A stretch of DNA of 64,000 nt from a virus, in the IMG/VR virus record IMGVR_UViG_3300008448_000033, positions 1-64,000 of that record, one strand, 5' to 3'. The position numbers and the translations under genes are program-made. This document shows positions 1 through 11,181 of the stretch, piece after piece (the first letter of the stretch is position 1; each line of letters opens with the position of its first letter). Under the pieces are notes generated by a model. It was not told the DNA's origin and did not search any database. It worked only from the letters and a program-made list of their open reading frames with translations.

Positions 1-23
1 TTGACCATCAACCCCACCATCAT
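1..23 (-). CDS. 5' end of a gene running off the left edge
   Basis: An AGGAG ribosome-binding site in the tail of the next gene is followed by ATGATG at 18-23 and an open frame (M-M-V-G-L-M-V) to the window edge. Only seven codons are visible, so no family can be assigned. Its position suggests another member of the small-gene array. Confidence 0.4.
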
Positions 24-30
24 TATGCTC

Positions 31-213
31 CTAAGTGTTGTAATTGTCAACAAACAATTTTACTGTTTCGTACCAAAAGAAAGATTGTGTGTCTACATCA
101 TCTGTGAACCATTCAACATGGTAAAGAGCTAAATGATCCTCTCTTTTTGTTACAATACCAAAAAGGTGTCCGCTATTTACCATTTTGCCTATTAGCGGAT
201 CGGTGGGCATCAT
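31..213 (-). CDS. Small SH3-like array protein
   Basis: 60 residues. Shows the array pattern: a leading strand (IGKMV), a short turn, then FGIVTKRE, then YHVEWF and a C-terminal hydrophobic strand/helix ending VDNY. This spacing suggests a small SH3/KOW/Tudor-like beta-barrel; the fold is inferred and no catalytic residues are seen. A GGGAG site precedes a double ATG, so the start may be three bases further in. The start overlaps the tail of the upstream gene by about 40 bases, suggesting translational coupling. Function unknown. Confidence 0.75.
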   Translation of the reverse strand: MMPTDPLIGKMVNSGHLFGIVTKREDHLALYHVEWFTDDVDTQSFFWYETVKLFVDNYNT

Positions 214-397
214 ACTCCCAATCTTTGTAATGGGCGATCAAGTCTTTTATAACAGCGGAGCTAAGTCCATGCTCAACTTCTGCAACAATGTCACCATACT
301 GGAACCAATACACAGTATAGTATTTTTCTTGTTTGTCCACAACAATTCCAATGGAACTATATTTTGAAATGCTGCTTCTAACCATTTCACCGATCAT
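173..397 (-). CDS. Small SH3-like array protein
   Basis: 74 residues with IGEMV, then SIGIVVDKQEKYYTVYWF, then a terminal I-x-D-L-I-x-H-Y strand. The YTVYWF block is almost the family consensus, so this is one of the clearest members. The C-terminus adds a charged tail (about residues 60-74) that overlaps the next gene in another frame. No enzyme motif. Function unknown; a paralogue of its neighbours. Confidence 0.8.
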   Translation of the reverse strand: MIGEMVRSSISKYSSIGIVVDKQEKYYTVYWFQYGDIVAEVEHGLSSAVIKDLIAHYKDWEYDAHRSANRQNGK

Positions 398-614
398 GTA
401 GGGGCATCATAGACCACTTTTCGTAATTGGTCAAGTCTTTGTGTTTGAGCAACTTTCGCTTGACTTCATATTCTGTGAAGTCAAATATTGCATTTGACTT
501 GAAGAATTTGACTTCGTAATGACGATTTTGAAACACGCCTTCAACCATATTTACTACTATACCAAATCCTAGAAATCTGTCAACAACAATTTCACTTATG
601 AGAGGATCAGTCAT
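387..614 (-). CDS. Small SH3-like array protein
   Basis: 75 residues. Pattern: ISEIVV, FGIVVNMVEG, YEVKFF, then an alpha/beta tail with several lysines. An AAAGG site precedes the ATG. It overlaps the downstream gene by 11 bases. It differs from neighbours by an inserted hydrophilic loop between the second and third strands. Function unknown; assigned to the array family by pattern only. Confidence 0.75.
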   Translation of the reverse strand: MTDPLISEIVVDRFLGFGIVVNMVEGVFQNRHYEVKFFKSNAIFDFTEYEVKRKLLKHKDLTNYEKWSMMPLHDR

Positions 615-779
615 TTACCAATAACCTTTGCGCTTCTGCCAATCCTGCCCCATGATGATCCACTCCTCTGCCTTGTCACCTAGCCAATGGAATGCAATGG
701 CACCGGCAATACCAAGGGGAACGAACACAAACAACATCAAGAGGAATGCTAGCACAACACTAACAACAATGTCAAGCAT
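615..779 (-). CDS. Small membrane protein
   Basis: 54 residues when started at the ATG preceded by AGAGGTGATC, which fits better than the longer upstream start. Residues about 3-35 form a long hydrophobic stretch (VVSVVLAFLLMLFVFVPLG and an Ala/Gly-rich second half), so one long or two short membrane helices are likely, followed by a basic tail (QKRKGYW). It sits between soluble array genes. Could be a membrane-acting early protein; no family recognised. Confidence 0.7.
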   Translation of the reverse strand: MLDIVVSVVLAFLLMLFVFVPLGIAGAIAFHWLGDKAEEWIIMGQDWQKRKGYW

Positions 780-781
780 GA

Positions 782-988
782 TCACCTCTTTTGATGGTAT
801 CCCATCAAAAAATTCATTCGCCAAGTGTCAACATAATTCCCAGAATAAAAGCAAGTCACTTCGCTGGTGTTGGTTTCTGGATCGGTGAACGCGATATCGT
901 AGTGAAAACCACTTATGTATGCAGGATATTTGTCGGTGACGATTCCATACTTAACACCGTCAAATACCATATCACCAACTTCAGTCAT
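782..988 (-). CDS. Small SH3-like array protein
   Basis: 68 residues, ATG preceded by GGTGGACA. Contains VGDMVFDGVKYGIVTDK followed by FHYDIAFTD, the same strand-turn-GIV-strand layout as the other array members, with an aspartate-rich loop and a C-terminal basic tail. Three bases separate it from the downstream membrane-protein start. Function unknown. Confidence 0.78.
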   Translation of the reverse strand: MTEVGDMVFDGVKYGIVTDKYPAYISGFHYDIAFTDPETNTSEVTCFYSGNYVDTWRMNFLMGYHQKR

Positions 989-1208
989 TGTCCACCACTA
1001 AGTTATAGTTATCTTTTAAGTATTTATCGCCAAAGACAACGATATCGCCAGCTTGTGATTTATCATAGCCGAAATTATTTGCCATGACAAGCATTTTCCA
1101 TGACAATTTTGGTTTACCAGTAATCTTATTTGTAGCCATAAAGCTTTCAAGTAAGACGCCCATAATCCCAAACGCTGGATCTTCTACTATATCACCCTGC
1201 TTGAACAT
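981..1208 (-). CDS. Small SH3-like array protein
   Basis: 75 residues. Starts FKQGDIVEDPAFGIMGVL and carries a second GDIVV near residue 55, so it may hold one barrel with a long insert or a duplicated first strand. An alternative TTG lies two codons upstream and the ribosome-binding site is weak, so the exact start is uncertain. The tail overlaps the next gene slightly. Function unknown. Confidence 0.72.
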   Translation of the reverse strand: MFKQGDIVEDPAFGIMGVLLESFMATNKITGKPKLSWKMLVMANNFGYDKSQAGDIVVFGDKYLKDNYNLVVDND

Positions 1209-1410
1209 TGTCAATGCCGTGATAATGCTTGTAATTCTCTACATAAATGTCAATGATATCGCTAGGATAGAACAGGGTGGGCATATTCATAAGCTTGGCA
1301 AGCTCGCTATCGCCCTCCCAACGAATTTCGTAATCATCGCCCTTTACATCGACAATAACGCCACTCATAGAGTTACGGTTAGACGTAACGCGAGTACCAA
1401 TCTTATACAT
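1192..1410 (-). CDS. Small SH3-like array protein
   Basis: 72 residues; the start is set by TAGGAGATAAA just before ATG. Contains IGTRVTSNRNSMSGVIVDVK and YEIRWEGD, the family's first strand, GIV-like strand and Y-x-I/V-x-W strand in order. Ends with a Tyr/His-rich helix. It overlaps the downstream gene by 17 bases. Function unknown. Confidence 0.78.
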   Translation of the reverse strand: MYKIGTRVTSNRNSMSGVIVDVKGDDYEIRWEGDSELAKLMNMPTLFYPSDIIDIYVENYKHYHGIDNVQAG

Positions 1411-1418
1411 TTTATCTC

Positions 1419-1649
1419 CTAAAGGCAAGTAAGAAAGTAATGTTCTTCTTCTCTGTGTTCGCTACCACCATATCTAAACTTGTCCATATCTTCCGCAGAA
1501 AAGATCTCACCTGCTTTTGAACCAGAGGTGACTAGGATTTCTACATCGTTATAGCCATCCTCGTTAACTTTAAGGATTATACTATAATCCCCGTCCTCGT
1601 CAATCCAAATTTGACCAACTTCAAGCTTGTCAGGAATTTTGCCGGTCAT
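1419..1649 (-). CDS. Array protein, VGQIW subgroup
   Basis: 76 residues. Belongs to a second subgroup of the array with V-G-Q-I-W near residue 11, then YSIILKV, then VEILVTSG, a strand-rich layout without the YxVxWF block. GGAG lies eight bases before the ATG chosen here; a longer in-frame start exists but lacks a site. The last residues are Glu/His-rich. Function unknown; shared pattern with the next five genes. Confidence 0.75.
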   Translation of the reverse strand: MTGKIPDKLEVGQIWIDEDGDYSIILKVNEDGYNDVEILVTSGSKAGEIFSAEDMDKFRYGGSEHREEEHYFLTCL

Positions 1650-1878
1650 GGACAATTCTCCACTCGTCAAGTTCAAAATTCATGAATACCATTTCAGTAT
1701 TGCCAGTATTCATATTTAACATACGGAATACAAGTTTGTCAAGAGGATCACCAGTATCCCTATCATCTGGTTCAATCAAGACAAAATATTCCCAATTATC
1801 CTCACCATGCCATTGACGTTTCCAAATCTGCCCAACCTTGGGATCATCGTCAATTACAATTGCTTTCTTTTTCTTCAT
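1630..1878 (-). CDS. Array protein, VGQIW subgroup
   Basis: 82 residues with a lysine-rich start (MKKKKA), then VGQIWKRQWHGEDNWEYFVL, then LVFRMLNMNTGNTE and a final DEWRIV strand. The W-x-x-x-W-x-Y-F-V-L-I arrangement recurs in the neighbours. Overlaps the gene downstream by 20 bases. No catalytic motif; function unknown. Confidence 0.75.
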   Translation of the reverse strand: MKKKKAIVIDDDPKVGQIWKRQWHGEDNWEYFVLIEPDDRDTGDPLDKLVFRMLNMNTGNTEMVFMNFELDEWRIVHDRQNS

Positions 1879-2080
1879 CTACTGGCACCGTCCATCTTAG
1901 CAAGTATGTGCTATTCTCAAACGATTGTCCACCGTGCCAATTGCAATAGACGATCATCAACCTATGCTTGCCAAATACTTGTCCTGTCTCGCCAATGATC
2001 ATATAATAACGATCACAATGTTTCAAGGATTTTCTTATCTGTCCTATGTATAGAGAATCACTCAAGCTTTTTCCATACAT
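1850..2080 (-). CDS. Array protein, VGQIW subgroup (start uncertain)
   Basis: 76 residues from this ATG. Contains YIGQIRKSLKHCDRYYMII, then LMIVYCNWHGG and YLLRW: the same order as neighbouring VGQIW proteins with Arg replacing Trp. No clear ribosome-binding site precedes any ATG. A TTG at 2065, behind GGAAAAAGC and overlapping the upstream stop, is an attractive alternative. Function unknown. Confidence 0.65.
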   Translation of the reverse strand: MYGKSLSDSLYIGQIRKSLKHCDRYYMIIGETGQVFGKHRLMIVYCNWHGGQSFENSTYLLRWTVPVDEEKESNCN

Positions 2081-2258
2081 CGGTTTGCAGCCAATGATTA
2101 AGATCATAGCCATGATGTATTATTTCGCTATCGTCGCCTATACGCAACAGATCATAGTATCCATGTTTATCTTTGTCAATGATGATATAAAGCTTTGTCT
2201 TATCGTAAACCCAAATCTCGCCTATAGTCGGGGTTATTGTCGTCAATGTTGAACCCAT
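2058..2258 (-). CDS. Array protein, VGQIW subgroup
   Basis: 66 residues: IGEIWVYDKTKLYIIIDKD, then YDLLRIGDD and GYDLNHWLQ. It closely follows the neighbour's strand order (IGxIW, L-Y-I-I-I, a turn, a closing helix with W). Overlaps its downstream neighbour and lies inside the 5' end of the next upstream gene. Function unknown. Confidence 0.75.
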   Translation of the reverse strand: MGSTLTTITPTIGEIWVYDKTKLYIIIDKDKHGYYDLLRIGDDSEIIHHGYDLNHWLQTDVWKKLE

Positions 2259-2466
2259 CAGCTTCTAAAACGTCAAGATAAAGTTTGTACCGCTCACCAG
2301 TCTCCATAACTAGAGTCTCAACGATTGTATCGCAATTACGATACTTGATTGCAACAGAGAAATCAAGAATAAAAAGGTGACGTTTGATATTTCCAAGACC
2401 TCTCACATACATGGGAGTATACCAAATTTGCCCCACACTAGGAAGGAAATTTACAGTCTCACCCAA
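2200..2466 (-). CDS. Array protein, VGQIW subgroup, TTG start
   Basis: 88 residues, starting at TTG preceded by CGGAGTGACAG. Contains SVGQIWYTPM, then LFILDFSVAIKYR, then VETLVMETGERYKLYLDVLE. The V-M-x-T-G-E element is also seen in relatives. It overlaps the downstream gene by 59 bases in another frame, the deepest overlap in the array. Function unknown. Confidence 0.72.
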   Translation of the reverse strand: MGETVNFLPSVGQIWYTPMYVRGLGNIKRHLFILDFSVAIKYRNCDTIVETLVMETGERYKLYLDVLEADGFNIDDNNPDYRRDLGLR

Positions 2467-2672
2467 CTGTCACTCCGAAAGTCTGGTTGAATTTGATAGC
2501 TATTACCAACAAAAAATCCTCTGCACTCGTCGGCATCACCACCTAAGAATACCATACTCCATACGCACTCGTCAACGCGATTGAGAATAAGCCAATGGTT
2601 GACGAATAGACAATCTTCCTCGTCACGATATTCAATCTTCCACATTTCGCCGGGATTCATAGTGATCGACAT
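2451..2672 (-). CDS. Array protein, VGQIW subgroup
   Basis: 73 residues: NPGEMWKIEYRDEEDCLF, then HWLILNRVDECVWSMVFLGG, then a strand with QIQPDF. GGAGGGA lies upstream of ATG. A divergent member with a Cys in each strand but no zinc pair. Function unknown. Confidence 0.72.
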   Translation of the reverse strand: MSITMNPGEMWKIEYRDEEDCLFVNHWLILNRVDECVWSMVFLGGDADECRGFFVGNSYQIQPDFRSDSWVRL

Positions 2673-2889
2673 TTTTAAGTGATCCCTCCTCTAGCATTCT
2701 ATCAATTTCTTTTTCGTCACGCCAGCGATCAATAACACCGGGAGCTTTTCTCTCATAGACACGCGAACACCAACAAGACCAGCAAGAACCGTCATATTCA
2801 AGCAGTATAAACTGGACAAAATTATTGTCAAGCTGATCTGTGTAAAACATTTGTCCAGCTTTATACTTTGGCTTCTTGGTCTTTTTCAT
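2632..2889 (-). CDS. Array protein, VGQIW subgroup
   Basis: 85 residues; lysine-rich start, then KAGQMFYTDQLDNNFVQFILL, then a CWSCWCSRVYE strand and a charged C-terminal helix (about residues 55-80). C-W-S-C-W-C could bind a metal or be chance. Overlaps both neighbours. Function unknown. Confidence 0.7.
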   Translation of the reverse strand: MKKTKKPKYKAGQMFYTDQLDNNFVQFILLEYDGSCWSCWCSRVYERKAPGVIDRWRDEKEIDRMLEEGSLKNVDHYESRRNVED

Positions 2890-3112
2890 GCTGCTCGCTC
2901 ATCTTTTGTTCATAATCTGCAAGATATATCTTGACATCATGCCACAAATAGTGGCGTGTGCTTTTTGCGCTTGAGAACCAATATATAGTGTAGTATGGAC
3001 CCATACCACCACTAGCGGTAGTGTATCTGCTTACGATACCATAACCAAACGTATGTGAAAAGACAAATCTTGATACTGCTTTTGCCCCACCATCTTTAGC
3101 TTTTGTTGGCAA
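2861..3112 (-). CDS. Small SH3-like array protein, TTG start
   Basis: 83 residues, TTG start behind GGGGGAAACACC. Contains FGYGIVSRYTTASGG, then YYTIYWFSSAK and VKIYLADYEQ: a clear member of the YxVxWF subgroup with a long loop between strands two and three. The C-terminal tail is charged. Function unknown. Confidence 0.78.
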   Translation of the reverse strand: MPTKAKDGGAKAVSRFVFSHTFGYGIVSRYTTASGGMGPYYTIYWFSSAKSTRHYLWHDVKIYLADYEQKMSEQHEKDQEAKV

Positions 3113-3281
3113 GGTGTTTCCCCCATGCCCGAATCTCTAACTCGTATGAATGGATTGTATCAAGGGTCTGGGTATCTTGCAACACAAGAATGTTACCCTT
3201 GTTGGATGCTCTTATTATTTTGACAATAACATAGGTCGTCTTGAATCCAACTATTATATCGCCTACACTATATTCAGTCAA
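3096..3281 (-). CDS. Small SH3-like array protein, TTG start
   Basis: 61 residues, TTG start behind AAGGAAATAGGTC. Begins with VGDIIVGFKTTYVIVKIIR, then NILVLQDTQT, then YELEIRAW. All-beta in appearance; lacks the GIV...WF block but keeps the VGDI first strand. Overlaps the downstream gene by 17 bases. Function unknown. Confidence 0.7.
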   Translation of the reverse strand: MTEYSVGDIIVGFKTTYVIVKIIRASNKGNILVLQDTQTLDTIHSYELEIRAWGKHLANKS

Positions 3282-3284
3282 GAC

Positions 3285-3542
3285 CTATTTCCTTGGCTTG
3301 TTGAACAACCCTTCAATCTTGTCGTTGTAAAAGTGTTTACCTTTTACTGCCGCAGCAAGATAGGTGTTATGCAAGTCAAGTATTTCACGATCATTATAGT
3401 CATTTATCTTGCGCTTGCCATAGAAAAATTGGACTTTATTTCTATAGCCACTAAGCTTTTTCTTGCCAACTTCAATGATTATACCAAGACCATACCACTC
3501 GTCAAGAACAAATGTACCTACAGGGAGTGTTGGTATGCTCAT
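3285..3542 (-). CDS. Small SH3-like array protein
   Basis: 85 residues with VGTFVLDEWYGLGIIIEVGK, then YRNKVQFFYGKRK, then a helical, basic C-terminus. The G-L-G-I-I-I and K-V-Q-F-F elements match the family's second and third strands. RBS AAGG then ATG. Function unknown; the basic surface would suit nucleic-acid or acidic-protein binding. Confidence 0.75.
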   Translation of the reverse strand: MSIPTLPVGTFVLDEWYGLGIIIEVGKKKLSGYRNKVQFFYGKRKINDYNDREILDLHNTYLAAAVKGKHFYNDKIEGLFNKPRK

Positions 3543-3545
3543 TGA

Positions 3546-3758
3546 TTACTCTACCTTTGTGGCATAATCGTCCAACCACCAATCGTTAATTAGCTTAACC
3601 TCGTCCCTACCGTGGTCGTCCGAAAAGTGGACACGATAATTAACAGAGTTCTTTCCAAATGGCACCACTTCAACTACAGTATAGATTGCACCACCCTTTT
3701 TGTCAAGGAAGATATCACCAGCATTGTGACGCTTAATTGTATTATTCTTTTTAGACAT
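3546..3758 (-). CDS. Small SH3-like array protein
   Basis: 70 residues; basic N-terminus (SKKNNTIKRH), AGDIFLDKKGGAIYTVVEVV, then YRVHFSDDH and a closing VKLINDWWLDDY. GTGAGGCACC precedes ATG. Function unknown. One of several array members that begin with a short positively charged extension. Confidence 0.77.
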   Translation of the reverse strand: MSKKNNTIKRHNAGDIFLDKKGGAIYTVVEVVPFGKNSVNYRVHFSDDHGRDEVKLINDWWLDDYATKVE

Positions 3759-3764
3759 GGTGCC

Positions 3765-3941
3765 TCACTTCTTGATGGAAGTCAAGTCACAAACGCAAAC
3801 ACCCTTGGCATCCACATAACGTACCGTATAAGGCGCACAGGTAGGCTCACAAGCCTTCTTAGCTTCCTCGTCCTTAATCTGGAGTGCGGTGCAACCAACG
3901 CAGGAACCAAGGAACAGGAGAAAGAACGCAAGATCACTCAT
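3765..3941 (-). CDS. Small lipoprotein
   Basis: 58 residues, ATG behind GGTGGAG. Begins with a short hydrophobic signal (LAFFLLFLG) followed by a lipobox-like L-G-S-C and a second Cys three residues on; the mature part has a Cys-x3-Cys and a C-V-C-D element and would lie outside the inner membrane. A lipoprotein made in an early small-gene array could act in superinfection exclusion or envelope takeover; this is inference from context only. Confidence 0.72.
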   Translation of the reverse strand: MSDLAFFLLFLGSCVGCTALQIKDEEAKKACEPTCAPYTVRYVDAKGVCVCDLTSIKK

Positions 3942-4185
3942 TTTGTTTGCTCCACCTTAAAAAGTATTCGCGGTATGATTTAGTTTCTTTGATTGACTCT
4001 GTTGACCAAGCGTTACCGTCATGGCTAATATAATTGAACCATCTAACCTTGTAAAGCTTTTTTCCAAGGTGATCAGTCTCGTCTGCGAAACCTAAAATAA
4101 TTCCAAAGTCAAGCACTTCGTTACAATCAGTATCAGTATCCACAAACGCAACCATGTCACCAGTTTTAAGCTTTATCCTTGACAA
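3934..4185 (-). CDS. Small SH3-like array protein, TTG start
   Basis: 83 residues, TTG start behind GGAAGTGAGC. Contains TGDMVAFVDTDTD, LDFGIILGFAD, then YKVRWFNY and a C-terminal helix. One of the best matches to the family consensus (GIIL...YKVRWF). Overlaps the lipoprotein start by eight bases. Function unknown. Confidence 0.8.
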   Translation of the reverse strand: MSRIKLKTGDMVAFVDTDTDCNEVLDFGIILGFADETDHLGKKLYKVRWFNYISHDGNAWSTESIKETKSYREYFLRWSKQNE

Positions 4186-4192
4186 TCAAAGC

Positions 4193-4387
4193 TCACTTCC
4201 TCTTATTTATTGCATCAACTAATGTCAAGCCAATGTCTCTAACCATCTTAACAGTATCGTCTGCCTTGTCAAGCTTTTCCTTGAGCAGGGTCTTAATCTC
4301 GTCGTAGGAGGGAGTATCGAACGGATCTATCTTAGCCTGTTCGTTATACTTTGTCAAGTCCTGTCCACAATTAGGGCAGTAATTCAT
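4193..4387 (-). CDS. Small zinc-ribbon protein
   Basis: 64 residues from the ATG behind CAGGAGTGAAA. Starts with a half zinc ribbon (CPNCGQDL) and continues as an acidic/basic amphipathic helix (about residues 20-60). A single CxxC pair would need dimerisation or a partner to bind zinc. Function unknown. Confidence 0.72.
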   Translation of the reverse strand: MNYCPNCGQDLTKYNEQAKIDPFDTPSYDEIKTLLKEKLDKADDTVKMVRDIGLTLVDAINKRK

Positions 4388-4389
4388 TT

Positions 4390-4641
4390 TCACTCCTGCA
4401 CATTCTTGACGATAATGCTGGCATTGCACTCGCAACGCTTATACTTTGTGCTGTAAACGCTGTTAGGATAGCACGCAGTAGCGCATTTGTCAAAGAAATT
4501 TTGATCGTTCATCTCTTGCTTCTTGTTATCGCTCACCCACATTGAAAACAGGGCAGCAATCATAACAGAAAATGAAATAACCGCTGCAATAACTGCATTC
4601 TCAAATGAAATGCTATCATAGATCCGCTTAAGTGTATTCAT
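4390..4641 (-). CDS. Single-pass membrane protein with Cys-rich tail
   Basis: 83 residues from the ATG behind AAAGGACATACA. A membrane helix spans about residues 14-36 (AVIAAVISFSVMIAALFSMW), followed by a tail with four cysteines (CATAC, CECN) likely exposed to an oxidising compartment if the N-terminus is inside. Three bases separate it from the zinc-ribbon start. Function unknown. Confidence 0.72.
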   Translation of the reverse strand: MNTLKRIYDSISFENAVIAAVISFSVMIAALFSMWVSDNKKQEMNDQNFFDKCATACYPNSVYSTKYKRCECNASIIVKNVQE

Positions 4642-4651
4642 TGTATGTCCT

Positions 4652-4915
4652 TTATCCCCCGAAGTCAAGTAGTGTGTTGTCTAGCAACCCTTGCCTTGTT
4701 GCATTTGCGTACAATTCGCGCATTGTATTTATGTATTCGTATTTACAATTCGGTATAACCGTTCCTGTGTCGAACCAGCGAATAGTATATCTTTTTGTTT
4801 CTGGTATGTCAACTGGATATTTTGAGTCAACATCAATTATAATGCCCATCCTATACTTATCTTGGACTGGTACATGGGTACACAGAAAGTCACCTATTTG
4901 CGGTTCGCTTATCAA
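4652..4915 (-). CDS. Small SH3-like array protein, TTG start
   Basis: 87 residues; TTG start behind AGTAGGTAA, overlapping the upstream stop. Contains IGDFLCTHV, then RMGIIIDVDSKY, then YTIRWFDTG. Strong match to the GIV...YxVxWF subgroup, with a C-terminal helical extension. Function unknown. Confidence 0.8.
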   Translation of the reverse strand: MISEPQIGDFLCTHVPVQDKYRMGIIIDVDSKYPVDIPETKRYTIRWFDTGTVIPNCKYEYINTMRELYANATRQGLLDNTLLDFGG

Positions 4916-5104
4916 TTACCTACTCTTTTCTAGCTTGCATCCAAAACCCATGCGAGTATCCGAATAAAGAGAGGGAATCTTGACAATGTTAGGGGGATCA
5001 CCCTTAACGATCTGGATCATTGGAAGATACTTCGATGCTCTCTTTGCAAGACTAGAAACAAGTCTAGCACGCAAATGCTTTCCTGTAAAGGTATTATTTC
5101 TCAT
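4916..5104 (-). CDS. Small basic protein of unknown function
   Basis: 62 residues, rich in Arg and Lys in the first half (GKHLRARLVSSLAKRASKY), then a short beta-rich part. It is the first gene after a strong sigma70-type promoter (-10 TATAAT at 5140-5145), so it probably heads a transcript running leftwards through the array. No family recognised. Confidence 0.68.
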   Translation of the reverse strand: MRNNTFTGKHLRARLVSSLAKRASKYLPMIQIVKGDPPNIVKIPSLYSDTRMGFGCKLEKSR

Positions 5105-5139
5105 TTAGTCTCCAGAGTGTCGAGGCTTGCGTCCACTCT

Positions 5140-5168
5140 ATTATATACTGCTTGGGGCAGGGAGTCAA
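5140..5168 (-). promoter_or_regulatory. Sigma70-type promoter
   Basis: TTGACT, 17 bases, TATAAT on the minus strand. The -35 box falls in the loop and 3' arm of the hairpin at 5154-5181; transcription would start just past that hairpin. Confidence 0.75.
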
Positions 5169-5181
5169 TGCTCCCTGCCCC
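5154..5181 (-). terminator. Hairpin after the wHTH-like gene
   Basis: Perfect 11-bp GC-rich stem with a six-base loop just downstream of the gene at 5190-5606. No run of T follows, so it may be a weak terminator or an mRNA-stabilising hairpin. It overlaps the promoter at 5140-5168. Confidence 0.6.
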
Positions 5182-5189
5182 GGTATTGC

Positions 5190-5606
5190 TTAGGCACTTG
5201 CCGCATCATCGAACATCGAAGGATTAATCTTGCGGAGCCAATCCTCGTCCATAGGGATCGCACCGCTCATCATGTCGGACATTCGCTGAACATCATCCGT
5301 AGAGAGGCTAGGAACCTCGCTATCGTCCGCAGAAACGGCATCCTCGTTGGACTCCTCGCCGGTATCACTTGCCGGTGCATCAACCGTCACCGGGGTAACG
5401 TCGAGCGTGATACCGTCTGCAAGAACGAAACCACCGTTGCGTCCTCGCTTGCCGGTGATCTTACCGGACTCCTTGAGAGAGTCAAGAACGTCGAGAACAT
5501 CGTTACCAAACTTACCGATAAGGTGAGTCTTGGGGCAGGGACGCTCATTGCTAGTGTGAAACTCGCGGATCGTAGTCAGCACGTTCGTAGTGTTAAGAGT
5601 AGTCAT
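5190..5606 (-). CDS. Possible winged-helix protein with acidic tail
   Basis: 138 residues, ATG behind GAGGAAAATAA. Residues about 28-65 (VLDVLDSLKESGKITGKRG followed by NGGFVL) look like a recognition helix followed by a basic beta-wing, suggesting a small winged-helix DNA-binding domain; this is a pattern judgement. The second half is acidic and low-complexity. It has its own promoter and a strong hairpin after it, so it is a single-gene unit, as expected for a regulator. Confidence 0.65.
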   Translation of the reverse strand: MTTLNTTNVLTTIREFHTSNERPCPKTHLIGKFGNDVLDVLDSLKESGKITGKRGRNGGFVLADGITLDVTPVTVDAPASDTGEESNEDAVSADDSEVPSLSTDDVQRMSDMMSGAIPMDEDWLRKINPSMFDDAASA

Positions 5607-5655
5607 TTATTTTCCTCGTTTCCGCCCATTGGGCTTGTTAGGTCTTGCGTTTGCC

Positions 5656-5862
5656 TTACTCACTCAGTATATCAAAATCGTTTTCGTTGTCAACCGTTTC
5701 TCTATCTTCCTCTACCGATTCCTGTAACTCACCACATTCAGCGCATTGCCAAGTCTCCAATCTGCAAGGGATTGCGATATCGTCCTCTCCCCAACCAACT
5801 ACAGAGATAACATCCAAAATCTCATATCTGTGATCGTCATCTGCACATTTAGATCTTATCAT
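5656..5862 (-). CDS. Small Cys-containing acidic protein
   Basis: 68 residues from the ATG behind AAGGGAGAAAC. Contains one CAEC pair near residue 41 and earlier single cysteines, then an acidic tail. Could be a half zinc ribbon. The promoter of the next gene lies inside its last codons. Function unknown. Confidence 0.65.
   Translation of the reverse strand: MIRSKCADDDHRYEILDVISVVGWGEDDIAIPCRLETWQCAECGELQESVEEDRETVDNENDFDILSE
5666..5693 (-). promoter_or_regulatory. Sigma70-type promoter
   Basis: TTGACA, 16 bases, TATACT on the minus strand, inside the 3' end of the gene at 5656-5862 and about 60 bases upstream of the start at 5606. Confidence 0.7.
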
Positions 5863-5876
5863 GTTTCTCCCTTTTG

Positions 5877-6107
5877 TCAAGCGGCACTCCACTTCTGCAC
5901 CAACATACGGTGATTATCGGTAGCAATCATCTTATCCGATCCATGCATAAAGTCAAGAACCTTGTTTGTATCTGGATCGTTTGTTACCTTGTCAATCGGA
6001 TGCACCATGCTCTCAAAACCAATCGCATTGACAGCATTATAGCCAGCATCTTGAGTAATGACAACAAAATTCCCCTTACGGTTCTGGATTGGAGTCCTCA
6101 ACGTCAT
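5877..6107 (-). CDS. Small protein of unknown function
   Basis: 76 residues from the ATG behind GGAGAGGAC. Begins TLRTPIQNRKGNFVVITQD and continues as an alpha/beta protein without a recognised motif. It overlaps the 3' end of the larger SH3-fusion gene by 32 bases, suggesting coupling. No family recognised. Confidence 0.65.
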   Translation of the reverse strand: MTLRTPIQNRKGNFVVITQDAGYNAVNAIGFESMVHPIDKVTNDPDTNKVLDFMHGSDKMIATDNHRMLVQKWSAA

Positions 6108-6888
6108 ATGTCCTCTCCACAAGTTTACCTGCAAACTTGTCTTTGCGGTTGACTAGCTTTAACGAGTTAATGCTATGCTCTCCACTTTCGCCTGTTGCGC
6201 TCCAAAGCACGGTGACAAGTCTAGTACCCTTGCCACTATACGAATCGGGATGAGTCTTGTCAAGAACATCAAGCACTATACCAATTCTAGGCTCATTCTT
6301 AAATTCTGCTCCCTTGTGGTAAAAGGGATCATGCAACCGCTTGTCATGGAACGGTGAACGCAACATGACAAGATTACCGGCAACAAATGGGACAGGACGC
6401 TGCATTTCGTTATATACTGCCAGCTTTCTACGATCATGGCAATAGAGAAAATTCTTCAAAGAGAGGTCGATAAGAAAATTGTTGATTGCGGTTGTATCAT
6501 CATACTGAACCTGTGTCCAGCTATATCTTGAAGATACAAGCGGATCGTGATAATAAAACCCTCGCCTAACGCAATCCTCATAATAGCTCTTTATCCAAGG
6601 ATTTGCAACAACATATTCTTGAAACTTTTTATTTGTCTCATCATACTTATCGCAAGCATAGCGAGCATACTGCCACAGCTTCCAAGAATCGTGAATATTC
6701 TTAAGATCAAGTTCGCTTATCTTATCAACACCAACACGCTTAGTCAAGTCAATAAGCATGGTAGCACGGTCAATATTCAACCCGTTGTTCCATCTGGGCT
6801 TGTAGCCATGTTCACTATACTGCTCAAATTCCTCTGGAATGTCAAAGAAAACTTGCATAGTCTTGTATCGTCTACTCACCCAACTCAT
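6076..6888 (-). CDS. Two-domain protein: helical domain plus SH3-like module
   Basis: 270 residues from the ATG behind AAGGAGGATATCAAGA. Residues about 1-165 are mostly helical and Tyr/Trp/Arg-rich (including SWKLWQYARYACDKY). From about 170 it carries the array module in order: VAGNLVMLRSP, RIGIVLDVLDK, TRLVTVLWS and a final NSLKLVNRK. It is one of two long proteins (with 12507-13154) that attach this module to a larger body, and may show what the single-domain paralogues compete with or mimic. Function unknown. Confidence 0.72.
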   Translation of the reverse strand: MSWVSRRYKTMQVFFDIPEEFEQYSEHGYKPRWNNGLNIDRATMLIDLTKRVGVDKISELDLKNIHDSWKLWQYARYACDKYDETNKKFQEYVVANPWIKSYYEDCVRRGFYYHDPLVSSRYSWTQVQYDDTTAINNFLIDLSLKNFLYCHDRRKLAVYNEMQRPVPFVAGNLVMLRSPFHDKRLHDPFYHKGAEFKNEPRIGIVLDVLDKTHPDSYSGKGTRLVTVLWSATGESGEHSINSLKLVNRKDKFAGKLVERTYDVEDSNPEP

Positions 6889-7102
6889 TCTTGATATCCT
6901 CCTTTGCAAGGTCGTTACGATGCATTCTATCAAATACAAGTTCGACAGTCAAACCATTTTCATTGTTGACAATGGCAGAACGCTTTTTGAAGCCATCATA
7001 CTTGATCTTGTAGTAATCATCAACAGCATATTTGGTCAACAGATCAACAATGAATTGCTCATCGAAAACAACCTTGACAGTCTCATCGTGAACAATCTGC
7101 AT
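6872..7102 (-). CDS. Small alpha/beta protein of unknown function
   Basis: 76 residues from the ATG behind GAGGAGCGTTAA. Begins QIVHDETVKVVFDEQFIVDLL and ends with a charged helix. Overlaps the start of the next gene by 17 bases. No motif recognised. Confidence 0.65.
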   Translation of the reverse strand: MQIVHDETVKVVFDEQFIVDLLTKYAVDDYYKIKYDGFKKRSAIVNNENGLTVELVFDRMHRNDLAKEDIKNELGE

Positions 7103-7103
7103 T

Positions 7104-7244
7104 TTAACGCTCCTCGTCATAATCTTCCTGTTCGGGGCAACAAGAGACACAATACGCCGCATCGTGATTGTCGTCAAGCTTAATCCACACTACCTCGTCC
7201 TCATGCAAATAGCAACCACAATCATAGCACTTAAGCACGCCCAT
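7104..7244 (-). CDS. Small zinc-ribbon protein
   Basis: 46 residues, ATG behind GAGGG. Two Cys pairs, CYDC near the start and C-V-S-C near residue 32, spaced as in a zinc ribbon, then an acidic tail. The stop lies two bases from the next start. Function unknown; a nucleic-acid or protein-binding zinc finger is likely. Confidence 0.7.
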   Translation of the reverse strand: MGVLKCYDCGCYLHEDEVVWIKLDDNHDAAYCVSCCPEQEDYDEER

Positions 7245-7252
7245 TATACCCT

Positions 7253-7312
7253 CTACTCATAGGAAAGAAAAATGCCGATCATCACAGTAAGAATAGCAGT
7301 AAGAACCATCAT
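7253..7312 (-). CDS. 19-residue membrane micropeptide
   Basis: ATGATG behind AGAGGTT opens a 19-codon frame encoding an almost fully hydrophobic peptide (MMVLTAILTVMIGIFLSYE). It would form a single membrane helix. It sits in tandem with other short genes with normal spacing. Very short frames can arise by chance, so this rests on the ribosome-binding site and hydrophobicity. Confidence 0.45.
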   Translation of the reverse strand: MMVLTAILTVMIGIFLSYE

Positions 7313-7324
7313 TGTCAACCTCTA

Positions 7325-7537
7325 TTAGTTAAGGAAAATCTTGCCCGATTCAACAAGAGGCTTGACAAAAGCTTCATAATCCGATAATGCCTGCGCCTCG
7401 TTGACAAAGTAAGCATAATACTGCTCCTTAGTCCAACCATGCTTATCAAAATTATCTTCAAACAATGCCTTTTCGGCAGCATCCAAAGCCTTTTGGTGAA
7501 ACTCTGCCATGATATCAATATCAATACGATTAGACAT
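7325..7537 (-). CDS. Small helical protein of unknown function
   Basis: 70 residues from the ATG behind GAGGATGCAA. Mostly helical with many aromatic residues (KEQYYAYFVNEAQALSDYEAF). Overlaps the tail of the upstream gene by eight bases. No family recognised. Confidence 0.68.
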   Translation of the reverse strand: MSNRIDIDIMAEFHQKALDAAEKALFEDNFDKHGWTKEQYYAYFVNEAQALSDYEAFVKPLVESGKIFLN

Positions 7538-7781
7538 TTGCATCCTCCTCGTCCTCATTGTTAGGTGAACCTTCCAAATTACTTTCTACATAGGAAAGTA
7601 TATCACTTTCCTCATAATCGTCAAGCACAAAATCAGTAAGACCCCACAAGCAAGACTCAATCTCAACATTGCCATTGTCAATATTAATAGCAAGGTCTAG
7701 CGTAATAGTTTGGTTGTTTCTGGTAATGCCCCACTCAAAATCGTAAACTTGATTGTCCTCAAACTTAAATTCGGTTGGCAT
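7530..7781 (-). CDS. Small acidic protein of unknown function
   Basis: 83 residues, ATG behind AAGGAGGTAGCTA. N-terminal half is beta-rich (YDFEWGITRNNQTITLDLAI), C-terminal third is strongly acidic (EDEEDA). Strongly negative small phage proteins sometimes mimic DNA; that is only a possibility here. Confidence 0.68.
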   Translation of the reverse strand: MPTEFKFEDNQVYDFEWGITRNNQTITLDLAINIDNGNVEIESCLWGLTDFVLDDYEESDILSYVESNLEGSPNNEDEEDANV

Positions 7782-7998
7782 TAGCTACCTCCTTTGGACC
7801 CACATTAATTACTATAGCACAACGAGAGCAAAGATCAACACCGTTAACAATTCTAACACCTACAGGATGAACATCATAATCACAAGCATAGTAGCCATAA
7901 TCCATTCTTGGATGCGGTGCCTCTGCAAACTCCGAATACTCTACATCATCCTCACACTTAATGCAAGTAAAAATAGGAGGTTCAATCTCGCTTGACAT
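7765..7998 (-). CDS. Small zinc-binding protein
   Basis: 77 residues with CIKC near residue 12 and CSRC near residue 57, framing a Tyr/Asp-rich loop; together they form a likely zinc site. ATG behind GAGGAATGC. Overlaps both neighbours. Function unknown. Confidence 0.7.
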   Translation of the reverse strand: MSSEIEPPIFTCIKCEDDVEYSEFAEAPHPRMDYGYYACDYDVHPVGVRIVNGVDLCSRCAIVINVGPKEVANANRI

Positions 7999-8146
7999 TT
8001 TTGCATTCCTCGCAAGAGCAAAAGGTGGGAAGTTTCTGTAGAGCGGTACTTGCCTCTCCGATCATATACAGATCCCCAGTATATGCGCCTCGCAGAAGCT
8101 TGTCAACATTTTTCTTGTATGCTTTCGACCAGTCTGCAAGAGTCAT
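7982..8146 (-). CDS. Small Cys-containing protein
   Basis: 54 residues; ATG directly behind AAGGGGGGTGC and overlapping the upstream stop (ATGA). An amphipathic N-terminal helix (LADWSKAYKKNVDKLLRGAY) is followed by CSCEEC near the C-terminus. Overlaps the next gene in another frame by 17 bases. Function unknown. Confidence 0.65.
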   Translation of the reverse strand: MTLADWSKAYKKNVDKLLRGAYTGDLYMIGEASTALQKLPTFCSCEECKNVKRD

Positions 8147-8337
8147 GCACCCCCCTTGTCCTCGTTAGGATCATTACTATTAGGGAACATACCAAACTTT
8201 TCAAGTCTCATTTCTACAATATCTTTGATGATTTGTAAAGCGTCATCCATTGGAAGATCAACATCTGCTGCAATATCGTAGATCCCATTTAGTGTATCAA
8301 TTTCGCTGTTCAAGTCAAGCTTGATCGGATAATCCAC
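8143..8337 (-). CDS. Small helical protein, GTG start
   Basis: 64 residues, GTG start behind GGGGAAGGCATA and overlapping the upstream TAG. Asp-rich with a central amphipathic helix (DDALQIIKDIVEMRLEKFG). No motif recognised. Confidence 0.68.
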   Translation of the reverse strand: MDYPIKLDLNSEIDTLNGIYDIAADVDLPMDDALQIIKDIVEMRLEKFGMFPNSNDPNEDKGGA

Positions 8338-8672
8338 TATGCCTTCCCCTTGTGGTTTTCGTTACCCTTGAAGGTTGCCACAGTCTCAAACTTGATACCG
8401 GGAGTCTTGGAGAGCATACCCATTTGGCAGGATTTGCCCTTGTAAAGCCCACTATTATTCTTCCAGAATGCAAGGTAGGCTTCGCGGTCTGCACCGTTCT
8501 TAAACTTAAGAACCTGCACGCTGCCCTGCTTGCCCTCTCCCGCCGAAACACCAGCATAGCGTACCACAGTCTCCTCACTACAGTCAACGCAATTCGTTGC
8601 AAGACCACCAACCCTACGCTTGGCAGGGGAGCGAGGATCAAACTCTACACCGCATTCAACGCAAGTACGCAT
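8337..8672 (-). CDS. Zinc-ribbon protein
   Basis: 111 residues, ATG behind AAAGGTGTTATC. N-terminal zinc ribbon with CVEC near residue 4 and CVDC near residue 28, then a basic alpha/beta domain (SVQVLKFKNGADREAYLAFW) of unknown class. Probably nucleic-acid binding. Base composition is more GC-rich than the right part of the window. Confidence 0.7.
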   Translation of the reverse strand: MRTCVECGVEFDPRSPAKRRVGGLATNCVDCSEETVVRYAGVSAGEGKQGSVQVLKFKNGADREAYLAFWKNNSGLYKGKSCQMGMLSKTPGIKFETVATFKGNENHKGKA

Positions 8673-8683
8673 GATAACACCTT

Positions 8684-8956
8684 TTATTTTTTAGTCAATG
8701 ATTTGTTAAATTTCTTGATCCAAGTTTCTGCCGCTTGCTCTGCGAATTTCTTTGCTTTTGCCAAGTCAACATGATTTCTTGGATAGAGAGTGCCAATATA
8801 CTCCCTTGAAACCTTAATGTCAACCGCTGTTAGCCAAAGAGGATCATCGCTATAGCCAACATCATACACTTGCCAAACCTGCAATTCAACCATCCCAAGT
8901 TTAGCACAATGTCCACCTCTACCGTCTTTCTTCCACTTCCAAGCAAGTTTCTTCAT
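8684..8956 (-). CDS. Small Trp-rich protein of unknown function
   Basis: 90 residues from the ATG behind GAGGGTAAC. Lysine/tryptophan-rich N-terminus (KKLAWKWKKDGRGGH), a beta strand region (VELQVWQVYDVG), and a C-terminal helix (AKKFAEQAAETWIKKFNK). It is the last protein gene before the structured RNA and tRNA-Leu genes. No family recognised. Confidence 0.66.
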   Translation of the reverse strand: MKKLAWKWKKDGRGGHCAKLGMVELQVWQVYDVGYSDDPLWLTAVDIKVSREYIGTLYPRNHVDLAKAKKFAEQAAETWIKKFNKSLTKK

Positions 8957-8972
8957 GTTACCCTCAAAATAA

Positions 8973-9278
8973 TTACAATGCAAGGCGTGTTTTTACACCA
9001 AAGAGAACCGGCTCATGCTTCGCTTTTTATCGGTTTGCCACTATTCTGGTTCACATGAACGGGCTAGTGTCCTATCCCCCAACCACAGCGACCTACGCTA
9101 GATTGCAGTTACCCTATCAGCTTTTTCTCGCATAGTCAAGTGAATAAAAGAGTTTCTAAACTACGCTTTCGGGAGCGTTAGCATTCCGCCTCTTAACGAG
9201 ATTTCTAGCTGCACTTGTGGATTTTGTCTCACTCTTTAAAAGATGGCTACCTTTAAGCCTACTTCCCTCGCATTGTAA
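8973..9278 (-). ncRNA. Structured RNA A (unassigned), about 306 nt
   Basis: No good reading frame occupies this stretch. Its ends pair: 8973-8985 with 9266-9278, 13 bp with one G-U. Inside are further complementary arms: a hairpin near 9166-9185 (ACGCT/AGCGT core), a GTTC/GAAC hairpin near 9050-9061 within a CACTA/TAGTG helix, an AACCG/CGGTT helix, and a GTGT/ACAC hairpin near the 3' side. It follows tRNA-Leu-CAA and is probably processed from the same transcript. A GAGGGAAGT stretch near the 5' side recalls RNase P conserved region I, but conserved region V is missing. No tRNA-like ends as in tmRNA. Class unknown. Confidence 0.6.
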
Positions 9279-9284
9279 CACGAT

Positions 9285-9372
9285 TGGTGGGCAAGGTGGG
9301 AGTCGAACCCACAATGTCTAAGGTGACGCCGGAGTTTGAAGCCGGTGGATATGCCAATTCTCCTACTCGCCC
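9285..9372 (-). tRNA. tRNA-Leu (CAA)
   Basis: Seven-bp acceptor (GGGCGAG/CTTGCCC), three-bp D stem, anticodon loop TTCAAAC, long variable arm, T arm GTGGG-TTCGACT-CCCAC, and an encoded ACCA end. The pair at 31-39 is C-U, a mismatch at the base of the anticodon loop. The long variable arm and A73 fit leucine. Reads UUG. Confidence 0.85.
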
Positions 9373-9379
9373 GAAAAGT

Positions 9380-9466
9380 TGGTGGGGAAAGTCGGAATCG
9401 AACCGACAAGGGATTGCTCCCGGCAGATTTTAAGTCTGCTGTGTTTACCTATTTCACCATATCCCC
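9380..9466 (-). tRNA. tRNA-Leu (UAA)
   Basis: Acceptor GGGGATA/TTTCCCC with one T-T mismatch, anticodon stem GCAGA/TCTGC with loop CTTAAAA, long variable arm, T loop TTCGATT, encoded ACCA. First gene after the promoter at 9476-9505. Confidence 0.9.
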
Positions 9467-9475
9467 ATTAAACTC

Positions 9476-9505
9476 ATTCTACCATAGATCTATTTACTTT
9501 TTCAA
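9476..9505 (-). promoter_or_regulatory. Promoter of the tRNA-Leu pair
   Basis: TTGAAA, 18 bases, TAGAAT preceded by TATGG, just upstream of tRNA-Leu (UAA). It would also transcribe tRNA-Leu (CAA) and structured RNA A. Confidence 0.65.
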
Positions 9506-9760
9506 CTTCTTTGTATTTTTAGTTAGGTTGTCGAACATCGTTGCTACCGGCAACCCTTTCAACCAATCATCGTACATTTTCTTCATCTTGTCAATACCTT
9601 GTTCAAGGTGCCATACTTCCTCACCTGTTTCCATGTGTTTGACAAGGTACATCGTTGGGGCTTCGATCTCTCGCAATTCTACAGCAATTACAACACCAAG
9701 TCCACTCATAAAACCATAGACTAGATCTCCAATTTTGTGCTTGGTGCCTTCCTCATTCAC
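9494..9760 (-). CDS. Small SH3-like array protein, GTG start
   Basis: 88 residues; GTG start behind GAGGAGTATGATGG, overlapping the upstream stop. IGDLVYGFMSGLGVVIAVEL, then MYLVKHMETGEEVWHLEQG and a helical, lysine-rich tail. Combines the GIV-type second strand with the M-x-T-G-E element of the VGQIW subgroup, linking the two subgroups. Function unknown. Confidence 0.78.
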   Translation of the reverse strand: MNEEGTKHKIGDLVYGFMSGLGVVIAVELREIEAPTMYLVKHMETGEEVWHLEQGIDKMKKMYDDWLKGLPVATMFDNLTKNTKKLKK

Positions 9761-9960
9761 CCATCATACTCCTCTACGGTTGAAGTGTCAATAATACTTG
9801 CAAGGTTATTTGCACCTCTACGCATATAATCAGTACCGCCATCCGTAAAGATTTCACCACACTTGCACTTGACAAAATCGTGACGATGCTTGCTCACAAT
9901 CTCGTCACCACACTTTGCACACTTGCAACTATTACGGATTATACGGTAATTCTTCGACAT
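9757..9960 (-). CDS. Zinc-ribbon protein with GGTDYxRRG motif
   Basis: 67 residues from the ATG behind AAAGGTTGAAA. Contains CAKCGDEI, an HRHDF block, CKCGEIF, then GGTDYMRRG. This compact zinc ribbon with C-terminal G-G-x-D-Y-x-R-R is a recurring small phage protein type of unknown function (resembles DUF7695 from memory). Overlaps neighbours by a few bases. Confidence 0.72.
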   Translation of the reverse strand: MSKNYRIIRNSCKCAKCGDEIVSKHRHDFVKCKCGEIFTDGGTDYMRRGANNLASIIDTSTVEEYDG

Positions 9961-10168
9961 TTTCAACCTTTTTGTAGTCCTTGAACATATCTTCATGGCA
10001 ATGATCTTTATCGTTCATAACAAAACTATAGAAATAATAAGGATAACGAGAGTCATTTTCAATGTCAAGAATAATCAATAAATCCCCGTAGTATTCATCT
10101 TCCTCGTTGATGTTGACAAGCATATCACCAATGTTGTATCTTGTCAAATCTTTTCTATGCTCGCCCAT
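9932..10168 (-). CDS. Small SH3-like array protein
   Basis: 78 residues; IGDMLVNINEEDEYYGDLLIILDI, then YYFYSFVMND and a C-terminal helix. Matches the array's first two strands (IGDxL, LLIILDI) with an acidic loop. GGAGGA upstream of ATG. Function unknown. Confidence 0.75.
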   Translation of the reverse strand: MGEHRKDLTRYNIGDMLVNINEEDEYYGDLLIILDIENDSRYPYYFYSFVMNDKDHCHEDMFKDYKKVENVEELPYNP

Positions 10169-10326
10169 GTATAACCACCATCCTCCTGTGGTGAGTCAAA
10201 CCATTTGACAATATAATAAAAATTGTCATAGTGAACAACTATACCATAAGGTTGTGGATGCTCCAAATTATTCCATGTTGACATTTTGACAAACTCGCCA
10301 ACATCAAAAGTTTTCTCTCTCCGCAT
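10144..10326 (-). CDS. Small SH3-like array protein
   Basis: 60 residues; VGEFVKMSTWNN, PYGIVVHYDNFYYIVKWFDS, then TWASIEKI. An almost consensus member: YGIVV, YYIVKWF, final W-x-S-I. GAGGTTGATAACTA precedes ATG. Function unknown. Confidence 0.82.
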   Translation of the reverse strand: MRREKTFDVGEFVKMSTWNNLEHPQPYGIVVHYDNFYYIVKWFDSPQEDGGYTWASIEKI

Positions 10327-10486
10327 TAGTTATCAACCTCAAACTTTTATTGGAGTGGAATCCATTACGGTTCATACTCTGCCAGAACACTTCAAAAATG
10401 TCAAGACCATTATCATTATGAATCTGGACAATAGTACCGGGACCAACAAATAGTGGATGCGTTACAATACTACCAATTGCAAACAT
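10304..10486 (-). CDS. Small SH3-like array protein read from a tRNA end
   Basis: 60 residues; IGSIVTHPLFVGPGTIVQIHN, then FEVFWQS, then SLRLI. A clear array member. Its ribosome-binding site GGAGG lies in the 3' acceptor strand of tRNA-Thr, and the A of its ATG is the last base of the encoded CCA end. A transcript cut at the tRNA 3' end would lose this start region, so tRNA processing and translation of this gene look mutually exclusive. Confidence 0.8.
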   Translation of the reverse strand: MFAIGSIVTHPLFVGPGTIVQIHNDNGLDIFEVFWQSMNRNGFHSNKSLRLITNAERENF

Positions 10487-10559
10487 GGTGCCTCCGACTA
10501 GAATCGAACTAGTAATTCATCATTACAAGGGATGAGTTATACCATTTAACTACAGAGGC
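10486..10559 (-). tRNA. tRNA-Thr (UGU)
   Basis: Acceptor GCCTCTG/CGGAGGC, D stem GTTA/AAC, anticodon loop CTTGTAA in a CATC/GATG stem with one mismatch, T arm ACTAG-TTCGATT-CTAGT, encoded ACCA. Last base is shared with the next gene's start codon. Confidence 0.88.
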
Positions 10560-10578
10560 GTCAAGAACAAATTGGTGT

Positions 10579-10652
10579 TGAGCCTTCGTATGGGATTTGA
10601 ACCCATATTAACGATGCCTCGTTATCCTGCCGGTTAGATCAACGAAGGCTCA
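10579..10652 (-). tRNA. tRNA-like element with shortened anticodon arm
   Basis: Has an ATC/GAT D stem with a GG in the loop, a standard T arm (ATGGG-TTCAAAT-CCCAT), and an end helix of 11 perfect bp (10579-10589 with 10642-10652) instead of seven. Between the D st and T arms there are about six bases fewer than in a normal tRNA; that segment folds as TAACG/CGTTA around a six-base loop AGGCAT with no U33. No anticodon can be assigned. A decayed tRNA gene or a non-decoding tRNA mimic. Confidence 0.6.
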
Positions 10653-10655
10653 AAT

Positions 10656-10730
10656 TGGTGACTCCAACCAGATTTGAACTGGTGTAATAGCCTTGAAAGG
10701 GCTATGTCCTAACCGCTAGACGATGGAGCC
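10656..10730 (-). tRNA. tRNA-Glu (UUC)
   Basis: Acceptor GGCTCCA/TGGAGTC, D arm GTC...GAC, anticodon stem TAGCC/GGCTA with loop CTTTCAA, T arm ACCAG-TTCAAAT-CTGGT, encoded ACCA. Confidence 0.9.
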
Positions 10731-10737
10731 TTAAAAT

Positions 10738-10813
10738 TGGTAGGGAGTGTCGGACTCGAACCGACCACCAAAGGATTAAAAGTCCTTTGCTCTACCTGAT
10801 GAGCTAACTCCCC
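10738..10813 (-). tRNA. tRNA-Lys (UUU)
   Basis: Acceptor GGGGAGT/ACTCCCT, D stem GCTC/GAGC, anticodon stem AAGGA/TCCTT with loop CTTTTAA, T arm GTCGG-TTCGAGT-CCGAC, encoded ACCA. Its first ten bases are also the last codons and stop of the upstream HNH gene. Confidence 0.92.
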
Positions 10814-11160: not shown

Positions 11161-11181
11161 AACAACACCTCCTATGCCTAA

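Follow-up and report, generated by a model that had tools for sequence, protein, structure and literature searches.

What is a phage doing with a crowded row of tiny genes, each encoding only 60-88 residues? The row lies on the minus strand of the IMG/VR virus record IMGVR_UViG_3300008448_000033, of which we analysed positions 1 to 64,000 (the window, that is, the first 64 kb of the 85.6-kb record); it is dense at 1-5.1 kb, and a small number of further genes lie at 9.5-10.5 kb. An earlier note, made from the letters of this DNA alone, had read the row as an array of about 23 small SH3-like paralogues. Since the contig ends at base 1 of the window, right beside the array, the array may run on past the window. 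Sheath, tube and baseplate genes were recognised among the window's open reading frames (ORFs), and the gp23 capsid protein (PF07068) was found in 14 out of 19 records, that of the window among them; judged by these genes, the source is evidently a T4-like myophage from an uncultured clade. Megablast of bases 1-20000 against 50,697 phage records returned no match, so the phage has no close cultured relative at the DNA level. The answer that we favour, with moderate confidence, is that the array is probably an early accessory region of interchangeable, diverse mini-binders built on one barrel, used for host takeover or counter-defence.

Compared singly, the window genes showed weak similarity, with array copies about 20-30% identical, and searches started directly from individual window genes turned up almost no relatives. 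We describe the family through related loci, which were reached via two conserved neighbour genes of the window encoding a DUF2201 metallopeptidase/VWA protein and an AAA_5 (MoxR-like) ATPase (13211-15628, minus strand; assigned with Pfam), with homologues in 76 and 81 loci, respectively. The MoxR-like gene served to select every locus, so the nearness of arrays to that gene is partly a selection effect. Among the matches listed for the MoxR-like ATPase in cultured phages, none had 80% coverage or more than about 28% identity.

The resulting profile database held 10,742 ORFs from 84 stretches. One relative, L004, has its own row of small genes starting M(K/Q)VGDLV, and from it we seeded a profile without window sequences; later iterations took in window ORFs that passed the threshold. 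This profile retrieved 592 ORFs at E<=1e-3 in round one and 1,061-1,110 thereafter, with none of the reversed and shuffled decoys at E<=0.01. At E<0.5 it matched 16 out of 364 window ORFs, every one within or adjoining the claimed array. Reciprocally, a profile of nine window genes alone retrieved 99 ORFs from the relatives, and none of the decoys, at E<=0.01. Summed pairwise scores set against shuffled sequences gave z=17 for this first group, which carries the motif YxVxWF, and z=1.5 for nine other small genes from the same region. INPHARED phages yielded no match to the family consensus at 0.01, and nothing better than E 4 for one natural member.

Ranked by the L004 profile (E from 5e-7 to 0.2), the window members, all on the minus strand, begin with the stand-alone genes at 3934-4185 (4.9e-7) and 10144-10326 (9.2e-7), followed by a larger protein at 6076-6939 that bears the domain at its C terminus (residues 188-269; 4.3e-5) and has homologues in L008, L009, L019 and L066. 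Next come 4652-4915 (4.5e-5), 173-397 (5.7e-4), 9494-9760 (0.0043) and 3546-3758 (0.014), then a protein at 12507-13154 with a probable C-terminal domain (0.016), which is conserved in 56 loci. The gene at 10304-10486 (0.02) is the sole array gene with a clear orthologue (61% identity, in L008). It is followed by 3285-3542 (0.02), 2861-3112 (0.024), 31-213 (0.034), 387-614 (0.053), 782-988 (0.075) and 1192-1428 (0.2, or 0.0055 by the window-only profile, with a sub-threshold DUF1918 match). Sixteenth is a weak candidate at 9932-10168 (0.46).

Four to seven further minus-strand genes form a second group, with the motif VGQIW. Its core consists of the genes at 1419-1676, 1630-1878, 2058-2258 (reading IGEIW) and 2200-2466 (z=7.3 against shuffles), and probable members lie at 1850-2113 (GQIR), 2451-2672 (GEMW) and 2632-2889 (GQMF), the widened seven-gene group having z=7.6. 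A profile aimed at tying the VGQIW group to ORFs of the relatives gave no significant match. The cross score between the first and second groups was z=0.5, that is, without sequence likeness, set against z=17 and 7 within groups; on these scores, they are evidently two families rather than variants of one pattern, and their common ground is the predicted fold alone.

The dense row of tiny genes is thus as the earlier note had described it, and so are the C-terminal copies at 6076 and 12507. Its figure of about 23 paralogues shrinks, on a fair count, to 13-14 stand-alone first-group genes, two C-terminal fusions and 4-7 second-group genes, and several genes in the interval proved unrelated. The gene at 615-824 has a membrane-like sequence; those at 3765-3941 and 4390-4668 contain Cys, have hydrophobic N termini and resemble each other (the latter with homologues in L009 and L066); and that at 9757-9996 encodes DUF7695 (E 1e-22). 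The single pattern said to unite both subgroups did not hold, and the gene at 9494-9760, supposed to combine features of the two, sorts with the first. As for the further copies proposed outside the array, the profile did not detect the one at 17433, and the one at 27967 was marginal only (E about 3-5).

The AlphaFold model of the first-group protein encoded at 10144-10326, made with an 80-row alignment, is a five-stranded barrel with a predicted local distance difference test score (pLDDT) of 82. Foldseek placed it next to Tudor, PWWP, DSIF KOW and NusG domains, with probabilities mostly of 0.9-1 and template modelling scores of 0.6-0.7. The model of the second-group protein at 1630-1878, from a seven-row alignment, was weaker (pLDDT 70), also five-stranded, and its neighbours included Tudor, PWWP and SH3 domains. 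By sequence, the top match of the first-family profile in the PDB was the NusG KOW domain (E 8e-4). Pfam searches with the consensus placed SH3-C_UBE2O above the cut-off and DUF2158, Mind bomb SH3 and MutS2 SH3 below it. The KOW family (PF00467) itself reached at best E 0.0056, in 2 out of 80 members and below the Pfam cut-off; single members among the 80 matched KOW and SPT5 KOWx, and window members scanned individually against Pfam gave no KOW match. We use the label KOW/Tudor-like without assigning the proteins to either family, because their scores fall below the Pfam cut-offs for KOW. One predicted model per subgroup thus supports a five-stranded SH3-like barrel of about 60 residues in the Tudor/KOW/PWWP class.

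Within the family, most core positions of the alignment fall below 1.5 bits, and loop positions lie near 4 bits, which is nearly random; the first loop alone runs from 4 to 39 residues. Charge is broad (median -1; isoelectric point quartiles of 4.8 to 8.9), with window members mostly acidic or near neutral. Two observations stand beside these. In a BFVD fold search, 7 of the 50 best viral matches came from accession block A0A516M, which may represent a single genome set encoding several proteins of this kind, and a small window protein at 12201-12416 has a sub-threshold match to WYL_2, an Sm-like SH3 barrel (E 3.8e-4), possibly a further SH3-type fold in the region.

The array is also an island of promoter-like sites, which we defined as at least 10 out of 12 matches to the sigma70 consensus. 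On the coding (minus) strand of bases 1-10,600, there were 37 such sites (22-10147) against 1.9 +/- 1.4 expected, many within the preceding gene; this amounts to one about every 290 bp, or about one per gene. The next 9.4 kb of the same strand had 15 sites against 1.5 expected. The opposite strand was at chance in both intervals (4 versus 2.5 and 3 versus 1.8, respectively), as was the remaining coding strand of the record from 20 kb (5 versus 5.9, 9 versus 7.0 and 6 versus 5.8). A second, independent scan with dinucleotide shuffles agreed on the enrichment. In the locus of the relatives, the coding strand had 4.7 sites per 10 kb inside the exchangeable gene units (cassettes) and 7.2 outside, versus 1.6 expected. 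Terminator-like stem-loops were not enriched in the window (8 found, 9.6 expected). Late promoters in the array were rejected, as it contains no exact copy of the late octamer TATAAATA. With a sigma70-type site about once per gene, the genes could be open to host RNA polymerase upon DNA entry, and the natural inference from these sites is that the region would be read early by unmodified host polymerase.

The first family extends across the clade. The domain was present at E<=1e-3 in 47 out of 49 related records, and comparable rows of small proteins occurred in about 80 related contigs. Most records of 185-206 kb had 14-25 copies, which lay mostly in one region in the four records listed in full, and a 168-kb relative had only two. 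Stretches of 18-21 kb in L043, L048 and L069 hold 34-35 cassettes; L008, L009 and L066 share the window's gene order, yet carry only 2-3. Pairs with at least 60% identity numbered 373 between phages versus 6 within a phage, and single linkage over 74 loci gave 536 families, 351 of them singletons. Because a phage seldom carries close paralogues, whereas orthologues in other phages are common, the arrays seem to be drawn from one common pool, and recent tandem duplication was rejected as their origin for the clade. Orthologous pairs in the relatives had a median ratio of nonsynonymous to synonymous substitution rates (dN/dS) of 0.20 (228 pairs), with 0.4% above 1, indicating purifying selection. 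In the window, only 1 out of 23 array genes had a homologue in relatives at E<1e-5, compared with 9 out of 20 other nearby small genes (Fisher p 0.003); by this comparison, the window array appears to turn over very fast. Separately, one of the 80 aligned array proteins matches PglX (BREX-2) methyltransferase models (E 7e-4 in PADLOC, 0.0076 in NCBIfam), a possible lead towards mimicry of a defence-protein domain, and one of the 80 matches Pfam DUF7008 (0.0087).

Exchange was most legible at the gene junctions of the relatives. An identical 14-nt overlap containing both start and stop, with a ribosome site just upstream, occurred at 362 out of 587 close junctions. It belongs to a seam of about 30 nt with the consensus tgGAGgT.aTcAgTGAAAGTCGGTGATTTgGT. 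Read in one frame, this DNA gives LEVISESR followed by a stop, and in another (M/V)KVGDLV; the ribosome site lies inside LEV. An exact form of the seam was present in 113 IMG/VR stretches. Orthologous seam-flanked cassettes had different neighbours in 76 out of 86 cases on the 5' side and 77 out of 87 on the 3' side, and DNA identity at the seam stepped between a background of about 0.28 and 0.7-0.94. Cassette order was partly scrambled among phages with 86% identical DNA, and cassettes shifted between arrays flanking MoxR-VWA on both sides.

An integron-like, recombinase-driven array was considered and rejected: tyrosine recombinase PF00589 was found in 0 out of 24 records and serine recombinase PF00239 in 0 out of 19, with controls detected, in records that may be incomplete. 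Because no such recombinase was found, the simplest route is homologous recombination over the short seam, aided by selection that keeps genes intact, and we infer that exchange would proceed in this way. In cellular genomes the seam pattern had five matches, in contigs of metagenome-assembled genomes that bear the labels Halobacteriovorax, Flavobacteriales and Peribacter. Probably these are phage contigs that ended up in the bins, because one shares its size, 101,404, with a seam-bearing IMG/VR contig, and their labels conflict as host hints.

The seam may be exchange point, coding sequence, ribosome site and stop at once, so that any cassette fits any neighbour and is translationally coupled to it. 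Tentatively, and at rather less than an even chance, we propose that this is a new viral gene-cassette system, with which phages compose their own sets of mini-Tudor/KOW proteins, drawing on hundreds of pooled families, as an early counter-host repertoire; the window would represent a seamless branch in which per-gene promoters replace the seam. What the window itself holds is the same protein family, promoter-rich and with very fast turnover, without the seam system; its gene overlaps range from -8 to 59 nt without a common value.

Taken together, these results would fit the following course. The phages would keep an early accessory region stocked with five-stranded Tudor/KOW-type barrels in which the core is conserved and the loops are free to vary. 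In the window, host RNA polymerase would read the genes right at DNA entry from their per-gene sigma70-type sites; in many relatives, the genes would instead be coupled through the fixed 14-nt start/stop overlap with the ribosome site just before it. Members would form a clade-wide pool and pass from phage to phage as complete cassettes, with the seam, if present, as the point of exchange, probably through the phages' ordinary homologous recombination. Most likely, the proteins would act singly, binding host transcription or translation machinery, nucleoid proteins or defence proteins, and turnover would follow changing hosts and defences. Fixed core, near-random loops and broad charge, together with early-type promoters, turnover and purifying selection, fit single-purpose binders of host targets. 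The earlier note's suggestion of many host or phage partners is plausible on the same grounds: early-type promoters, fast turnover, purifying selection in relatives and variable loops all point there.

Several points weigh against this reading. A search of the window for the seam with up to three mismatches gave no match, and the window's relatives L006 and L013 also have seamless arrays; the cassette evidence therefore comes from other relatives. Exchange at gene ends could also arise if pieces were joined at random and selection then kept the intact genes. The promoter sites are putative, being matches to the sigma70 consensus. Several window members have E values of 0.01-0.2 and are backed as a group more than individually, and the Foldseek E values exceed 0.001, a usual outcome for barrels of 60 residues. 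Function, finally, is putative: we judge host takeover or counter-defence to be about as likely as the other roles together. The family, the fold, the island of promoter-like sites and the exchange in relatives are firmer than the function; early timing, host targets and the recombination route are presumed.

The remaining claims of the earlier note divide along these lines. Its guess of an SH3-like barrel is supported by the predictions: the nearest folds are Tudor, PWWP and KOW, and the best sequence match in the PDB is the NusG KOW domain; neither the two models nor the shuffles pointed to unrelated folds or to a chance pattern. Expansion of one domain is supported in part, given the low identity of the copies and the rarity of close within-phage paralogues. 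Co-translation, which the note had drawn from the dense overlaps, suits the relatives with their fixed stop/start overlap and sits less well with the window, where overlaps are irregular and promoter-like sites frequent.

Might the barrels instead coat nucleic acid? They could be nucleic-acid or nucleoid proteins, like T4 MotB and chromatin proteins, that cover phage or host DNA or RNA, the many copies supplying dose. The KOW/NusG and PWWP matches suit this idea, and so does the behaviour of MotB: made early by T4 and predicted to contain a KOW domain, it binds DNA, and no sequence specificity has been detected in this binding (PMC6070864, PMC7827196). However, dose predicts similar copies, yet these are highly divergent with loops near random, and their charge is broad and mostly not basic, which disfavours a model of basic, generic DNA-binding proteins; we consider such a coat unlikely. 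A role as small KOW-like transcription or translation factors, adjusting host RNA polymerase or ribosomes during phage expression, seems slightly less likely still: it agrees with the NusG KOW domain being the best match among solved structures and with the single members resembling KOW and SPT5 KOWx, but those matches are near threshold, and it leaves unexplained why dozens of interchangeable, fast-turning versions are retained.

The high turnover, extreme diversity and exchange at seams would also be expected if the arrays were mostly junk or selfish, short genes hopping between phages by seam or promoters without benefit to the phage. Retained core residues, the low dN/dS with so few pairs above 1, and the near-universal presence of the domain in related records make this very improbable. 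Many unexplained genes of large phages sit in early accessory regions; the region here becomes readable, in large part as one predicted fold. The pool would be a ready library of natural mini-binders for host polymerase, ribosome and defence systems, and the exchange points, located at near-base resolution in relatives, offer a clean system for gene swapping without frame breakage.

Other genes surround the array. Eight transfer RNA genes (two for Leu and one each for Thr, Glu, Lys, Asn, Arg and Ile) are mixed with array genes at 9285-12064, a stretch that also includes an HNH-like gene (10804-11160). The protein at 15717-16382 has two CCHC-like zinc knuckles (zf-C2H2_10 2.8e-5 and zf-CCHC 0.039, both under the Pfam cut-off) and homologues in 60 related loci. 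A single T4-like genome here combines a bacterial-type DNA polymerase III alpha (39677-43108), which has PHP, NTPase and finger domains, with a second polymerase, probably of family A (58171-59373). Chaperonin Cpn60, ClpP, IMP dehydrogenase/GMP reductase and UvdE are encoded at 28927-30555, 33369-34022, 37047-38105 and 52000-52929, respectively. The protein at 57345-58169 starts MTIIGLGNAGCNIAE, recalling the glycine-rich start of the FtsZ/tubulin type, and Pfam gave no match for it.

A literature search, with subscription papers and preprints outside its reach, found no description of such arrays. In predicted fold, the proteins resemble KOW/NusG C-terminal, Tudor and PWWP domains; they differ in being mostly stand-alone, 60 residues long and too low-scoring for the KOW and Tudor families of Pfam. 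Two uncharacterised groups of small bacterial proteins, DUF2158 and DUF1918, share a similar N-terminal pattern, but their matches score under the curated cut-offs. By description, the array also recalls the 'ORFanage' of the T4-like cyanophage S-PM2, in which 33 ORFans occupy one contiguous stretch, and which the relevant passages of the source do not present as one protein family (PMC4503421). T4 MotB, with its predicted N-terminal KOW domain, is toxic when made in E. coli and raises T4 burst size (PMC6070864, PMC7827196), so one such KOW-domain protein can act on the host. Compared by description, MotB and the array have in common a T4-like phage, a predicted SH3-like/KOW domain, a dispensable region and, presumably for the array, early expression, but MotB is a two-domain DNA binder, whereas the array comprises dozens of single-domain, mostly non-basic copies.

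Modular shuffling mediated by promoter early stem-loop (PeSL) elements is reportedly known from hyperplastic regions of T4-type phages, through work attributed to Arbiol (2010) and Comeau (2014). As far as it is outlined in PMC4503421, this is the nearest known process. Both cases involve T4-like phages, accessory genes with early-type promoters and whole genes swapped between conserved boundary elements. PeSL elements combine an early promoter with a stem-loop terminator, whereas the window has the promoter-like sites without terminator enrichment, and the boundary in its relatives is the seam of about 30 nt, with ribosome site, start and stop within overlapping frames. They differ, too, in what is traded: the genes exchanged in the relatives all come from one protein family.

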